Assembly (NCBI GenBank): GCA_016777325.1
Contig: JADHRQ010000004.1
Location: 1 to 64,000 of the forward strand
Direction: 5' to 3'
DNA: 64,000 nucleotides
Source: Flavobacteriales bacterium
Lineage (GTDB): Bacteria > Bacteroidota > Bacteroidia > Flavobacteriales > Flavobacteriaceae
In this document: one piece after another, positions 16,240 to 37,666 of the stretch
Numbering within the stretch: the first letter of the stretch is position 1
Layout: each line of letters opens with the position of its first letter
Made by a program: the position numbers and the translations under genes
The notes under the pieces: generated by a model
What the model saw: only the letters and a program-made list of their open reading frames with translations
The model's database searches: none
What the model was told of the DNA's origin: nothing

Positions 16240-16321
16240 GCGGGTGTGGTGAAATTGGTAGACACGCTAGACTTAGGATCTAGTGCCTAACAGCTTGGGG
16301 GTTCGAGTCCCTTCACCCGCA
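16240..16321 (+). tRNA. tRNA-Leu (anticodon UAG)
   Basis: The 7-bp acceptor stem GCGGGTG/CACCCGC closes the molecule, with A at 16321 as discriminator base. The D-loop has the conserved GGTAGACAC. The anticodon stem CTAGA/TCTAG encloses the loop CTTAGGA, giving anticodon TAG, and the T arm carries GGTTCGAGTCC. The extra bases between anticodon and T arms form the long variable arm of class II tRNAs such as tRNA-Leu. The 3' CCA is not encoded and must be added afterwards. Confidence 0.97.
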
Positions 16322-29535: not shown

Positions 29536-29542
29536 TTGGAAA

Positions 29543-29596
29543 CAGAGGAAGGATTTGACTGATTGCAACCTCTTAAAAAAATTGCTAAAGCAGTAA
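29543..29596 (+). promoter_or_regulatory. SAM-II (metA/SAM-alpha) riboswitch
   Basis: An H-type pseudoknot aptamer for S-adenosylmethionine. Stem P1 is AGAGG (29544-29548) with CCTCT (29569-29573). The pseudoknot P2 is ACTG (29558-29561) with CAGT (29591-29594). The conserved core is present: GATTTGAC before the loop, ATTGCA, an A-rich joiner (29575-29580) and GCTAAA (29584-29589). Binding of SAM should lower expression of the SAM-making enzymes downstream. GATTGC in the core (29561-29566) is also complementary to GCAATC (29608-29613), which could form the SAM-free alternative. There is no Shine-Dalgarno to hide, so the output mechanism is open. Confidence 0.85.
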
Positions 29597-29643
29597 TTCT
29601 TTTACTCGCAATCTTTCATTTTTATTTCTCATAAATCTATTTT

Positions 29644-33132: not shown

Positions 33133-33561
33133 ATGGTAGTACACTTAGATAGGGTTAATGATAAATATTTATTTGAATTAACTAACAAAAATGGACATCA
33201 AGTTTTTCTTGACAGAAAATATTCTCCTGATTATAATGTTAAAGGAGTAAGCCCAATGGAGTTATTATTAATGGGTGTTGCAGGATGTAGTAGTATTGAT
33301 ATTATTTCTATTTTAGAAAAACAAAAATTGAATCCTATATCATATAAAATGGAAGTTGAAGGAGAGAGAGAATCTACACCAGGAGAACCTTACAAAAAAA
33401 TTCATGTAAATCTGTATATTGAGGGAGATATTCCTGGTGAAAAAATAATACGTGCAGCTTCATTAAGTTTTGATAAGTATTGTTCTGTATCAAAGAATCT
33501 GGAAAAGTCAACATCTATTGAACATTCTATATACCTAAATGGGGCTATAATTAAAAAATAG
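33133..33561 (+). CDS. OsmC family protein
   Basis: A 142-aa OsmC/Ohr-fold protein with the two expected cysteines, Cys52 (GCSSIDI) and Cys117 (DKYCSVSK), which in characterised relatives reduce organic hydroperoxides. The sequence KGVSPMELLLMGVAGCSS is a family hallmark, closest to the YhfA/OsmC branch rather than Ohr. It lies two bases after metX, within the riboswitch-controlled operon, which suggests a link to sulfur metabolism or thiol protection. That link is inferred from position. Confidence 0.9.
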   Translation: MVVHLDRVNDKYLFELTNKNGHQVFLDRKYSPDYNVKGVSPMELLLMGVAGCSSIDIISILEKQKLNPISYKMEVEGERESTPGEPYKKIHVNLYIEGDIPGEKIIRAASLSFDKYCSVSKNLEKSTSIEHSIYLNGAIIKK

Positions 33562-33571
33562 ACTAAAAAAT

Positions 33572-33601
33572 TTGTTTTTACGTGTACCTATTATACTTTT
33601 G
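33572..33601 (+). promoter_or_regulatory. Promoter of the aromatic amino acid operon
   Basis: TTG (33572-33574), 19 bases, and TACTTTTG (33594-33601) match the Bacteroidota consensus exactly. The expected start at about 33606-33608 is within three bases of the leader peptide ATG, so the leader message would be almost leaderless. Confidence 0.8.
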
Positions 33602-33608
33602 TTCAATA

Positions 33609-33671
33609 ATGACAAAAAATTTTAATTTTTATTATAGCTATTATTTCTTTTCTAACCAAAAGACAGGGTAA
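33609..33671 (+). CDS. Phe/Tyr-rich leader peptide of the pheA operon
   Basis: A 20-codon open frame from ATG at 33609 to TAA at 33669-33671. Eight of its residues are aromatic and are concentrated at positions 5-14 in the order F, F, Y, Y, Y, Y, F, F (core FNFYYSYYFF). Both end products of the downstream pathway are thus sensed by codon. A promoter sits just upstream, and the final codons overlap the 5' arm of the antiterminator. This is the layout of a ribosome-mediated attenuator. The peptide itself is not expected to have another role. Confidence 0.85.
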   Translation: MTKNFNFYYSYYFFSNQKTG

Positions 33672-33709
33672 CTATTCTATTAAAAGAAATTATATATACT
33701 AGTCCTGTC
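33662..33709 (+). promoter_or_regulatory. Antiterminator of the pheA attenuator
   Basis: GACAGG (33662-33667) and ACTA (33671-33674), separated by a three-base bulge, pair with TAGTCCTGTC (33700-33709). This pairing uses all seven bases of the terminator's 5' arm (33701-33707), so the two structures exclude each other. The first arm spans the leader's last two codons and stop. A ribosome that finishes the leader therefore covers it, while one stalled at the Tyr/Phe codons leaves it free. Confidence 0.75.
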
Positions 33710-33728
33710 AAATCAGGACTTTTTTTTT
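33701..33728 (+). terminator. Attenuator terminator immediately before pheA
   Basis: A perfect 7-bp stem AGTCCTG/CAGGACT (33701-33707 with 33714-33720) with a six-base loop is followed by eight T. The T run ends two bases before the pheA ATG at 33731. Because this hairpin lies between the aromatic operon's own promoter and its first gene, it regulates rather than ends the met operon. Confidence 0.9.
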
Positions 33729-33730
33729 AT

Positions 33731-34543
33731 ATGAAAGTATCAATTCAAGGAATTAAAGGATCATTCCACCATATGGTAGCAAATAATTATTTTGATTCGT
33801 TTGAATTAAATGAGTGCTCAACATTTGAGAGTCTTGTAAAATCTGTAGTAGATACAGAATCTGAATATGGGATAATGGCTATAGAAAATTCAATTGCAGG
33901 CTCTATTCTTCCAAATTATGCTCTTATTGATGAATATAATCTGTCGATAATAGGAGAACACAGTATAAATATTGATCATAATTTAATGTGTCTCCCAAAT
34001 CAAAACATTAAGGAAATTAAAGAAGTTCACTCCCATCCAATGGCACTATTGCAATGTTCTAAGTTTTTTAGTAATTACCCTCATATTAAATTAATAGAAA
34101 GTGAAGATACAGCTCTATATGCTAAATATATAAGAGATAATGAAATTAGAAATGTAGCAGCAATTGCAAGTTTAGAAGCATCTAAAATATACACTTTACA
34201 AATCCTAGAAACATCTATTCAAACTATTAAAAACAATAAAACACGATTTGTAATTCTTGAGAAGATAAAAAAAAATAAACCTGACTTTGATAAGGCTGCT
34301 CTTAAATTTATTCTTGACCATAAAAGAGGAAGCTTAGCTACAGTACTGAATATGATGAGTGACTGTAATTTAAATCTTACTAAGATTCAGTCTTTACCTG
34401 TTATTCAAACTCCGGGTAAATATGCATTCTTTGTTGATGTCACTTTTAAATCAACTGAAAATTATAAAAAAGCAATAAAAATTATTGAATTAATGGCTCA
34501 AGAGTTTAAAATTTTAGGAGAGTATAAATATCAAAAATCATGA
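33731..34543 (+). CDS. pheA: Prephenate dehydratase
   Basis: Converts prephenate to phenylpyruvate, the precursor of phenylalanine. The catalytic domain (1-180) shows GIKGSFHHMVA, EYGIMAIENSIAGSI, HSHPMALLQCSKF and the catalytic NNKTRF (TRF at 171-173). A C-terminal ACT domain (about 190-270) would normally carry ESRP for phenylalanine binding; here the matching residues are QSLP (220-223). Feedback by Phe at this site may be weak or altered. The chorismate mutase is supplied by the fusion gene downstream. First gene of the operon behind the attenuator; overlaps tyrA by 4 bases. Confidence 0.95.
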   Translation: MKVSIQGIKGSFHHMVANNYFDSFELNECSTFESLVKSVVDTESEYGIMAIENSIAGSILPNYALIDEYNLSIIGEHSINIDHNLMCLPNQNIKEIKEVHSHPMALLQCSKFFSNYPHIKLIESEDTALYAKYIRDNEIRNVAAIASLEASKIYTLQILETSIQTIKNNKTRFVILEKIKKNKPDFDKAALKFILDHKRGSLATVLNMMSDCNLNLTKIQSLPVIQTPGKYAFFVDVTFKSTENYKKAIKIIELMAQEFKILGEYKYQKS

Positions 34544-35388
34544 AAATTGGTATAATAGGTTTAGGTTTAATAGGTGGATCAATTGCTTTGAAATTAAAAG
34601 AAGTAAATAATAACTTTATTATTTATGGTTTTGATCAGAATATTGATTCACTTGAATACTCTTTAAAAAATCAAATTATCGATAAGAGATTTAATCCTGA
34701 ATCATTAATAGATTTTGATTATATATTTCTTGCAATACCAGTTGAATCTATTAAAAAACAACTTAAAATTATTCTAGATAAAATATCAAAACAAACATTA
34801 GTTATTGATTTAGGATCAACGAAATATCAAATTTGTAATTCAGTTAAAACACACGATAAAAGAGCAAATTTTTTAGCTGCTCACCCAATAGCTGGGACAG
34901 AGTTCTCTGGCCCTGTTGCTGCTCATAAAGATTTGTTTACTAATAAAGTTATGATTCTATGTGAAACTGAAAACACAAATTCATCTCTACTTTTAAGTGC
35001 AATTGAAATTTTTCAAAAATTAGGAATGAAAATCAAGAGAATGGATTCTCTAGAACACGATAAACATATTGCTTATGTATCCCATTTGTCTCATATTTCA
35101 TCATTTATGCTGGGTAAAACAGTAATGGATAAAGAGGATGATCAACAGACAATTTATGATATGGCAGGAAGTGGGTTTGAATCAACTGTAAGGTTGGCAA
35201 AGAGTTCTCCTGAAATGTGGTCTTCAATTTTTATTGAAAACAAAAATAATATTATTGAATCTCTTGAGGAATACATATTAAATATTAATAATTTTAAAAA
35301 ATTAATAGAAAGTGGAGATCAAGAAAATCTTAATACTGAGATGAAAAAAATTAATGGTATAAGAGAAATTTTAAAAGGAATTAATTAG
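34540..35388 (+). CDS. tyrA: Prephenate dehydrogenase
   Basis: Oxidises and decarboxylates prephenate to 4-hydroxyphenylpyruvate with NAD(P), the tyrosine branch. The nucleotide-binding GLGLIGGS is at residues 7-14. HPIAGTEFSGP and HDKHIAYVSHLSHISSF are the substrate-site blocks typical of the family. The length of 282 aa indicates no fused chorismate mutase or ACT domain. The start forms an ATGA overlap with pheA, and it is followed after 6 bases by the DAHP synthase fusion. Confidence 0.95.
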   Translation: MKIGIIGLGLIGGSIALKLKEVNNNFIIYGFDQNIDSLEYSLKNQIIDKRFNPESLIDFDYIFLAIPVESIKKQLKIILDKISKQTLVIDLGSTKYQICNSVKTHDKRANFLAAHPIAGTEFSGPVAAHKDLFTNKVMILCETENTNSSLLLSAIEIFQKLGMKIKRMDSLEHDKHIAYVSHLSHISSFMLGKTVMDKEDDQQTIYDMAGSGFESTVRLAKSSPEMWSSIFIENKNNIIESLEEYILNINNFKKLIESGDQENLNTEMKKINGIREILKGIN

Positions 35389-35394
35389 AAAATT

Positions 35395-36477
35395 ATGGAA
35401 AATAAAAAAGAATATAGAAATTGGCTTGAACAGATGAACTTAGATCATCCACTTGTAATCGCAGGTCCGTGTAGTGCGGAAACTGAAGAACAAGTTTTAA
35501 AAATTGCCCATCAACTTAAAGATACCAATGTTTCGGCATATAGAGCAGGAATTTGGAAGCCACGAACAAGACCTGGTATGTTTGAAGGAGTTGGCGCAAT
35601 CGGATTAAATTGGTTAGAAAAAGTCAAAGAAGAAACAGGTTTATTAACTGCTATAGAAGTTGCAAATTCTGTCCATGTTGATTTAGCATTAAAACATAAT
35701 ATTGATATTTTATGGATTGGAGCAAGATCAACAGTAAGCCCATTTATTGTTCAAGAAATTGCAGATGCTTTAAAGGGAACAGACAAAACAGTTTTAATAA
35801 AAAACCCAGTTAATCCTGATTTAGCTCTTTGGATGGGAGGAGTTGAAAGAATATATTCAGCAGATATTAAAAATATTGGAGTTATTCATAGAGGCTTTTC
35901 TTCATATGATAAATCTAAATACAGAAATAATCCAGAATGGCAGATTGCTGTTGAATTTCAAAATAATTTCCCAGATATTCCTCTAATTTGTGACCCTTCT
36001 CATATAGCTGGTAAAAGAGACTTAATTTATGATTTAAGTCAAACCTCTCTGGATCTTAATTATGATGGTTTAATGATTGAATCTCATTGGGATCCTGATA
36101 ATGCATGGAGTGATGCTGCACAACAGGTTACCCCAAAACGTTTAATACAAATAATTAAAGATCTTGAAATAAGAGATAAGACTTTTCAAGGAGAAGATTA
36201 TCAAAATCAATTAAATAACTTAAGATCTCAAATTGATGTTGCAGATCAAAATTTATTGACAACTTTAGGAAAGAGAATGAAAGTTGCAAAGAATATAGGT
36301 AAATTAAAATCTGACAACAATGTAGCAATTCTCCAAAATAAAAGATGGAATGAAATTTTAGGAAAAATGATATTAGATGGAGAAGATCATGGCTTAAGTG
36401 AAGAATTTATTCTTAAATTTTTTAAAGCAATACATCAAGAATCAATTAATAATCAAAAAAAAATTTTAAATAAATAA
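35395..36477 (+). CDS. Bifunctional DAHP synthase / chorismate mutase
   Basis: A fusion of the first shikimate enzyme and chorismate mutase (360 aa). Residues 1 to about 265 are a type I-beta DAHP synthase: LVIAGPCSAETEEQ, YRAGIWKPRTRPGMFEG, ARSTVSPF, CDPSHIAGKR and MIESHWDPDNAWSDA. From about 270 a type II (AroQ) chorismate mutase follows, with the NNLRSQIDVADQNLLTTLGKR helix and further helices to 355. In Bacteroidota this fusion supplies prephenate directly for the PheA and TyrA encoded just upstream. It has no separate ACT domain. Confidence 0.95.
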   Translation: MENKKEYRNWLEQMNLDHPLVIAGPCSAETEEQVLKIAHQLKDTNVSAYRAGIWKPRTRPGMFEGVGAIGLNWLEKVKEETGLLTAIEVANSVHVDLALKHNIDILWIGARSTVSPFIVQEIADALKGTDKTVLIKNPVNPDLALWMGGVERIYSADIKNIGVIHRGFSSYDKSKYRNNPEWQIAVEFQNNFPDIPLICDPSHIAGKRDLIYDLSQTSLDLNYDGLMIESHWDPDNAWSDAAQQVTPKRLIQIIKDLEIRDKTFQGEDYQNQLNNLRSQIDVADQNLLTTLGKRMKVAKNIGKLKSDNNVAILQNKRWNEILGKMILDGEDHGLSEEFILKFFKAIHQESINNQKKILNK

Positions 36478-36484
36478 TCTAAAA

Positions 36485-37666
36485 ATGTTATCAGACAAAA
36501 TTAATTCATTACCAATTTCACAAACGGTAGCAATGACTGCTAAAGCTCATGATCTAAAAAACAAAGGTGTAGATGTAATAACTTTAAGTGCAGGAGAGCC
36601 TGACTTTAATATTCCGGATTACATTAAACAGGCAGCTATAGATGCTATAAATGAAAATTATCATAAATATTCTCCAGTTGATGGATTTTTAGATCTTAAA
36701 AAAGCAATTTGTAAAAAATTCAAAAGAGATAATAACCTTGATTATGACATTGATCAAATTGTAGTTTCTACTGGTGCAAAACAGTCAATAGCTAATGTTT
36801 GTATGTCTCTTATAAATAAAGGTGATGAAGTTGTTATTCCAACTCCTTATTGGGTTAGTTATAGTGCTATGGTTTCTCTTGCAGATGGAATTCCTGTATT
36901 TGTTCATCCTGCTGAAGATGCAAATTATAAAATAACTGCAGATCAACTTGAATCTGCAATTACAGATAAAACAAAAATGATAATGTTTAATTCACCAAAT
37001 AATCCAAGTGGTTCAGTTTTTAGTGAAGAAGAATATTTAGAATTTTCAAAAGTTTTACAAAAATATCCTGATATAATCGTTGTTTCAGATGAAATATATG
37101 AACACATAAATTATGACTCTAAAAGTGTAAGTTTTGCCAGTTTACCAGGAATGTATGAAAGAACAGTAACTGTAAATGGAATATCTAAAGCATTTGCGAT
37201 GACAGGTTGGAGAATAGGCTATCTAGCAGCTCCAAAAATTTTAGCTAAAGCATGCAATAAAATGCAAGGTCAAATTACAAGTGGAGCCAATTGTATAGCA
37301 CAAAGAGCAACTATAAAAGCATTAGAAGAATCTCCAGATAGAATTCAATATATGGTTGATGAATTTAAAATTAGAAGGGATTTAATAATTGACCTAGTTA
37401 ATCAGATTAATGGATTTGAAATCAAGTACCCACCTTCTGGGGCATTCTATATCTTTCCTGAAGTCTCAAATTTATTTGGAAAAACATTTAAAGGAGAAAT
37501 TGTAAGTAATGCTAATGATTTGTCAATGCTAATTCTTGAAAAAGCTCATGTAGCTACTGTCCCTGGAGACGCTTTTGGCTATCCAAACTGTATAAGAATA
37601 TCATATTCTGCATCTAAAGAACAAATAGTGGAAGCTATTAGAAGAATTAAAGATCTTTTATCTTGA
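36485..37666 (+). CDS. Aspartate/aromatic aminotransferase
   Basis: A class I PLP aminotransferase (393 aa, I-gamma subgroup). Marks include LSAGEPDFNIPDYI, the YSPVDG segment, STGAKQSIANV, SPNNPSG (170-176), and VNGISKAFAMTGWRIGY with PLP Lys235 and Arg243. In this operon it most likely makes phenylalanine and tyrosine from their keto acids, or aspartate; family members often do both. It overlaps rsmG by 4 bases. Confidence 0.93.
   Translation: MLSDKINSLPISQTVAMTAKAHDLKNKGVDVITLSAGEPDFNIPDYIKQAAIDAINENYHKYSPVDGFLDLKKAICKKFKRDNNLDYDIDQIVVSTGAKQSIANVCMSLINKGDEVVIPTPYWVSYSAMVSLADGIPVFVHPAEDANYKITADQLESAITDKTKMIMFNSPNNPSGSVFSEEEYLEFSKVLQKYPDIIVVSDEIYEHINYDSKSVSFASLPGMYERTVTVNGISKAFAMTGWRIGYLAAPKILAKACNKMQGQITSGANCIAQRATIKALEESPDRIQYMVDEFKIRRDLIIDLVNQINGFEIKYPPSGAFYIFPEVSNLFGKTFKGEIVSNANDLSMLILEKAHVATVPGDAFGYPNCIRISYSASKEQIVEAIRRIKDLLS

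Follow-up and report, generated by a model that had tools for sequence, protein, structure and literature searches.

The operon for phenylalanine and tyrosine synthesis in this flavobacterial genome is very probably controlled by ribosome-mediated transcription attenuation, in which a leader senses how far both tRNA-Phe and tRNA-Tyr are charged. The operon encodes, in order, prephenate dehydratase (pheA), prephenate dehydrogenase (tyrA), a DAHP synthase fused to chorismate mutase, and an aminotransferase; we take these four genes to make Phe and Tyr and to feed their common pathway. Upstream of pheA lie a frame of product codons, a terminator and an antiterminator that excludes the terminator and covaries with it, at a spacing that suits stalling and stopping ribosomes when a general ribosome footprint is assumed. 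The initial annotation had proposed that the leader reads both pathway products through the ribosome, and the leaders of relatives, the covariation, the spacing and the Phe and Tyr genes downstream all argue for this reading.

Components of the pheA leader

All features claimed from the sequence are present in the window (the whole 64,000-nucleotide stretch of DNA analysed). The positions of the promoter, the 20-codon frame, the terminator and the antiterminator sharing the terminator's 5' arm are correct to the base (Table 1). The attenuator occupies the gap that separates an OsmC-like gene, which ends at 33561, from pheA, which starts at 33731. Its promoter consists of TTG (33572-33574), 19 further nucleotides, and TACTTTTG (33594-33601). 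Eight of the ten codons from positions 5 to 14 of the leader are aromatic, with Phe at 5, 7, 13 and 14 and Tyr at 8, 9, 11 and 12.

Table 1. Positions of the attenuator parts and adjoining features in the window.
Feature	Position	Strand	Basis
SAM-II riboswitch (long-loop type, RF01726) before metK	29539-29598		Rfam match
Bacteroidota-type promoter, TTG-N19-TACTTTTG	33572-33601	+	Pattern match
Leader peptide frame, MTKNFNFYYSYYFFSNQKTG	33609-33671	+	ATG 33609 to TAA 33671, 20 codons
Possible arm 1 / pause hairpin	33646-33663	+	Folding; moderate support
Arm 2, 5' arm of the antiterminator, which overlaps the stop codon of the leader	33662-33674	+	Folding, complementarity
Arm 3, antiterminator 3' arm, common to the terminator 5' arm	33700-33709	+	Folding, covariation
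Intrinsic terminator (7-bp stem, 6-nt loop, eight-T tract)	33701-33728	+	Sequence, folding
pheA, prephenate dehydratase	33731-34543	+	PF00800
tyrA, prephenate dehydrogenase	34540-35388	+	PF02153, PF20463
DAHP synthase fused to chorismate mutase	35395-36477	+	PF00793, PF01817
Class I/II aminotransferase	36485-37666	+	PF00155

The terminator stem pairs 33701-33707 with 33714-33720 around the loop TCAAAT and is followed by eight T (33721-33728), which end two bases before the pheA ATG. In the antiterminator, 33662-33667 and 33671-33674 pair with 33700-33709, giving 10 bp with a 3-nt bulge. The possible pause hairpin would pair the Phe-codon stretch 33646-33651 with 33658-33663, and it both abuts and enters the antiterminator arm. 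Comparison of folding energies, as the initial annotation had suggested, gives -10.0 kcal/mol for the antiterminator region (a small inner hairpin included) and -9.9 kcal/mol for the terminator stem, so the two rival structures are about equally stable. When the whole leader is folded unconstrained, the terminator forms together with a hairpin within the leader.

These parts suggest how the operon could respond to its products. With Phe and Tyr plentiful, a ribosome translating the leader would reach the stop codon at 33669 and mask arm 2; arm 3 would then pair with arm 4, and transcription would end at the U-tract before pheA. Should either charged tRNA be scarce, the ribosome would stall at a Phe or Tyr codon with its front edge just short of arm 2. 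Arm 2 would then be free to capture arm 3, the terminator would be blocked, and the operon would be transcribed.

The genes 5' of the attenuator are metK and those for a Cys/Met-type PLP enzyme, a hydrolase and the OsmC-like protein. They are preceded by a SAM-II riboswitch, which bears out the earlier remark that the preceding operon is under riboswitch control. This riboswitch and a tRNA (16240-16321) are the only Rfam matches at gathering threshold in the whole window, and no amino-acid operon leader family reaches its gathering score there. Trp_leader (RF00513) scores only 13.8 bits against the pheA leader (threshold 41, E 3.8). A riboswitch or T-box at the pheA leader was rejected, as Rfam has no match at this position. 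The search for a second copy of the leader in the same genome gave a 39-base match (L002) without visible leader or terminator. A strict DNA pattern of the leader matched once each in 14 of 199 family genomes, and some of these sites were compared with pheA, by coordinates; the pattern is too narrow to support a wider conclusion.

Occurrence in relatives and by chance

Relatives carry the same arrangement. Including the source genome, pheA was found in 86 of the 119 genomes searched, and 85 upstream regions were counted after one partial pheA match was left out; the partial matches G111 and G236 stand outside the counts, and G176 was treated as spurious. An aromatic-codon leader followed by a terminator precedes pheA in 73 of the 85 regions, again with the source genome included (arms set by hand in four of the 73). 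One further locus, L026, was falsely scored as leaderless; repeats separate its terminator from pheA, and its leader and terminator lie at -658, bringing the total with both to 74 of 85. By eye, the repeat units of L026 are about 110-120 nt each and fill several hundred nucleotides. Within the window's genus, all 23 pheA loci have both elements. The aromatic frame and both hairpins are thus kept among relatives, with compensatory change, as the initial annotation had expected of a working attenuator.

The remaining 11 of the 85 regions have no leader (L053, L054, L076, L069, L072, L073 and L083-L087). Five of these, L083-L087, come from a single family, and their pheA reaches only 28-32% identity. 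Three others (L069, L072, L073) come from genomes of about 600 kb in which pheA has neither leader nor terminator; the organisms are perhaps insect endosymbionts, a guess from genome size, and may have lost feedback on Phe supply. In L069 an aromatic-rich GTG frame ends 4 nt before pheA, and as a terminator is absent this locus was scored as having no leader.

The arrangement also extends across the class. A class-wide sample of 54 upstream regions contained 40 leaders, 38 of them with an automatically detected terminator (the automatic search gave none for the other two), and 14 regions without a leader. In two of the leaderless class loci (L109, L111), pheA directly follows a long frame that we read as aroA. 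Another of the 14, L147, has a promoter-like box and a terminator before pheA and no leader frame; it is perhaps a decayed attenuator. All 19 named loci inspected have a leader, although 12 or more of them had been counted before. The nearest are from MAGs of marine Flavobacteriales or Cryomorphaceae (MED-G121 and MED-G11, for instance); the leader is also visible in Tenacibaculum sp. MAR_2009_124 and Mariniflexile fucanivorans.

It might be argued that the hairpin merely terminates the upstream met/OsmC genes, and that the aromatic frame arose as a by-product of a high A+T content. The region is indeed A+T-rich, TTT and TAT codons are common, and the upstream genes end at 33561. Moreover, a frame with at least five aromatic residues in ten is frequent by itself, arising in 122 of 695 shuffled upstream regions, which makes this a loose criterion. 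The combination behaves differently: no shuffle satisfied the leader and terminator criteria jointly, either among these 695 regions or among 2,000 dinucleotide shuffles of 33562-33731, and chance origin of the pair was rejected. Those 2,000 local shuffles produced a frame with at least eight F/Y in ten codons once and a terminator as stable twice. A promoter also intervenes between the upstream gene and the leader, the arms co-vary, and recurrence of leader and terminator before pheA in many genera speaks against the by-product explanation, to which we assign virtually no probability.

Stricter measures of the leader agree with these shuffles. At least seven aromatic residues in ten occur in 102 of 111 real leaders, compared with three of the 695 shuffled upstream regions. 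On both strands of the window, the leader is the sole ATG frame of 9-40 codons with at least eight F/Y/W in ten. Aromatic codons make up 38% of the leader frame versus 13% and 17% of the other frames, an excess that in part reflects the choice of the frame by this very property.

Another possibility is that control is mainly translational, with the terminator hairpin hiding the pheA initiation region and the antiterminator exposing it. The window itself lends this some appeal, since only two bases separate the end of the U-tract from the ATG and the hairpin therefore overlaps the ribosome site. Among the 73 upstream regions, however, pheA lies anywhere between 5 and 93 nt from the terminator stem, and in L026 several hundred nucleotides of repeats intervene, yet the U-tract persists, as expected of a transcription terminator. 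We consider translational control very unlikely as the main mode and favor transcription attenuation; translation may contribute secondarily in the window's genus.

The initial annotation had described the message as almost leaderless. A pattern search found a TAnnTTTG-like box before the leader in all 23 genus members and in 41 of 50 other leader-bearing relatives. The gap from box to leader ATG is 6-9 nt in every one of the 23, so that a very short or zero 5' UTR is likely in this genus, consistent with that description. Among the 41 others the corresponding gap spans 6-24 nt, with most values at 15-19, and a few of the small values may reflect mis-called boxes. No Shine-Dalgarno sequence was seen before the window's leader. 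Trp leaders of the genus begin 4-5 nt after the box in 16 of 17 cases, the seventeenth being a pattern artefact (L178, from another family, and L180 were left out of the 17). Two other promoter matches in the window have a long frame within 120 nt, and one of them has a 6-nt gap, so the leader is not alone in its near-leaderless start.

Covariation, spacing and leader codons

The competing hairpins are supported by their coordinated change between genera. The core of the terminator stem differs by genus (GTCCTG, GTCTCG, GTCCCG, GCCTCG, CCCGGA and others), and arm 2, which lies within or just past the leader frame, tracks these changes. The duplex of arms 2 and 3 averages -12.9 kcal/mol with its own partner versus -9.2 kcal/mol with the partner of a swapped taxon; the own partner is better in 46 of 47 representatives, and none of 10,000 permutations scored as high. 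For arms 3 and 4 the values are -13.3 and -8.9 kcal/mol, with the own partner better in 45 of 46 and again no permutation of 10,000 as high, although these figures are partly built in because the arms were picked as the best hairpin. Both permutation tests ignore the relatedness of taxa. Across 75 representatives, one sequence per genus out of the 111 loci, positions 1-7 of the terminator stem show two to six pair types each, and all six types occur at positions 4-6.

Complementarity of arm 2 exceeds that of shuffled sequence (p<=0.05) in 101 of the 111 loci. Of the ten loci in which it does not, three (L005, L014, L016) come from the window's genus and have a weak duplex between arms 2 and 3 (p 0.15-0.18). 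The pause hairpin of arms 1 and 2, which joins the Phe codons to an A-rich stretch ahead of arm 2, is common, with moderate support: its mean energy is -8.6 kcal/mol against -5.7 kcal/mol in shuffles, with p<=0.05 in 27 of the 75 one-per-genus representatives.

The position of arm 2 is also constrained. Measured from the first base of the last aromatic codon in the cluster, its core begins at 9-19 nt in 105 of 111 loci (median 15, SD 2.8 nt), while only 28% of shuffled arms fall within this range (median 23, SD 12.8). The footprint of a ribosome was taken as -18 to +12. On this assumption, a ribosome at the stop codon overlaps the arm 2 core in 106 of 111 loci (95%), compared with 75% of shuffled arms, and encloses it wholly in only 88 (79%), compared with 60%. 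The tight distance from the control codons to arm 2 is a stronger result than the overlap with a ribosome at the stop codon. Both measures fit the earlier proposal that a ribosome completing the leader masks the first antiterminator arm and a stalled one leaves it free.

The composition of the leader peptides points to the codons themselves as the conserved element. Twenty distinct peptides occur in the window's genus, and since they retain 3-5 Phe and 3-7 Tyr while their other residues vary, codon type and not peptide sequence is conserved. F and Y exchange among relatives, so the check on codons versus peptide that the initial annotation had proposed comes out in its favor. Residues past the aromatic run, where arm 2 is located, change freely. 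Among 46 genus representatives, Phe is present in all, Tyr in 45 and Trp in 28; Trp is absent from the leaders of all 23 loci in the window's genus.

These peptides also bear on a sensor of another kind, in which the nascent leader would stall on binding free Phe or Tyr inside the tunnel of the ribosome. Such an arrest peptide would likewise need a translated leader and a switchable terminator, both of which agree with the parts described above. Arrest peptides require specific residues, however, whereas these leaders vary widely in length and sequence, swap F and Y freely, and include Trp in 28 of the 46 representatives. Because of this variability we regard an arrest peptide as extremely unlikely, and prefer a leader read through charged tRNA.

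Other leaders and known systems

Comparable frames precede other amino-acid operons in these bacteria. A frame with two or three clustered Trp codons lies before trpE in 21 of 23 loci scanned; no trp leader was found in L171 and L180, and the L180 match sits elsewhere than the scan assumed. L179 contains undetermined bases, and L192-L198, being partial or weak matches, were omitted from the trp/his scan. In the loci of the window's genus among L172-L190, the Trp codons of the trp leader stand next to each other in twos or threes. All seven hisG loci (L162-L168) are preceded by a frame with 4-6 clustered His codons. The hisG gene itself was seen in only one of 25 window-genus genomes searched, many of them incomplete. 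Terminators after the trp and his leaders were judged by eye only, and none of the ten trp/his loci compared matches any Rfam family at threshold.

Three of 139 loci scanned contain tandem attenuators before pheA, in which each aromatic leader has its own terminator: three copies in L082/L088 (1621-2050 of L088), two in L146 and two in L155. Two leader-terminator units are visible by eye in L149. Tentatively, and with almost as much expectation that it holds as that it does not, we propose that one ancestral aromatic attenuator regulates pheA across Bacteroidia, reading Phe, Tyr and, in many lineages, Trp; that in some genomes in-line duplication, up to three times, multiplies this control; and that in the streamlined marine genus of the window the phe/tyr and trp leaders are translated from almost leaderless messages. 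If this is true, attenuation in the window's genus runs without a Shine-Dalgarno sequence or a real 5' UTR. The distribution suggests that Bacteroidia as a class rely permanently on ribosome-mediated attenuation of the textbook type. For studies of how attenuation works in these bacteria, the pheA leaders supply a large set of natural variants: their arms covary, some occur in tandem, and they are missing from some very small genomes.

The pheA attenuator is very well supported and widespread, and its kind is already known. In pheL-pheA and trpL-trpE of E. coli, a leader of control codons precedes mutually exclusive antiterminator and terminator hairpins, and the stop codon lies beside the antiterminator arm; the pheA leader described here shares all of these features. 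It differs from the E. coli systems in that Phe and Tyr (often also Trp) appear to be read together before a pheA-tyrA-DAHP synthase operon, in the lack of a visible Shine-Dalgarno sequence, and in a 5' UTR that is probably very short in the window's genus. Kinship in sequence with the E. coli attenuators was compared through Rfam only. Initiation without Shine-Dalgarno sequences and coupling of RNA polymerase to the ribosome are less studied in Bacteroidia than in Proteobacteria. The abstract of a 2004 comparison of attenuation systems by Vitreschak and others reportedly mentions Bacteroidetes/Chlorobi, which would lower novelty further.

The initial annotation had stressed that such attenuation is best known from Proteobacteria, and this claim of rarity elsewhere has to be weakened. 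Work on Flavobacterium psychrophilum in 2021 pointed strongly to attenuation by leader peptides ahead of amino-acid operons and described a structured 5' element before pheA, common to other Flavobacteriaceae and without Rfam hits (PMC9723704). That element matches ours in gene, family and the absence of an Rfam family; in its relevant passages, the article names it only as a conserved structured element, and leader, arms, codons, geometry and class-wide extent are absent from them (PMC9723704). For Bacteroides thetaiotaomicron, of the same phylum, short frames in long 5' UTRs were likened in 2020 to leader peptides of attenuators, the example in the passage concerned being a hypothetical gene and not an amino-acid operon (PMC7366714). 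A list of 2010 (Table 1 of PMC2864571) includes the Bacteroid-trp motif (RF01692) and, next to it, the Leu/phe leader (RF01743); both names suggest amino-acid operon leaders, the former in Bacteroidetes. Neither exceeds its gathering score in the window, in 19 pheA loci or in ten trp/his loci.

We found no earlier report, in open-licence literature, of the class-wide extent, the three-arm covariation or the tandem copies. These three features and the likely near-leaderless leader of the window's genus are what appears to be new, judged from sequence comparison. The tandem arrangement has a parallel in mgtCBR of Salmonella, where tandem leader-peptide attenuators answer two different signals (PMC3641672). 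Both systems place more than one leader-peptide attenuator in a single transcript leader, and every tandem copy before pheA has clustered aromatic codons.
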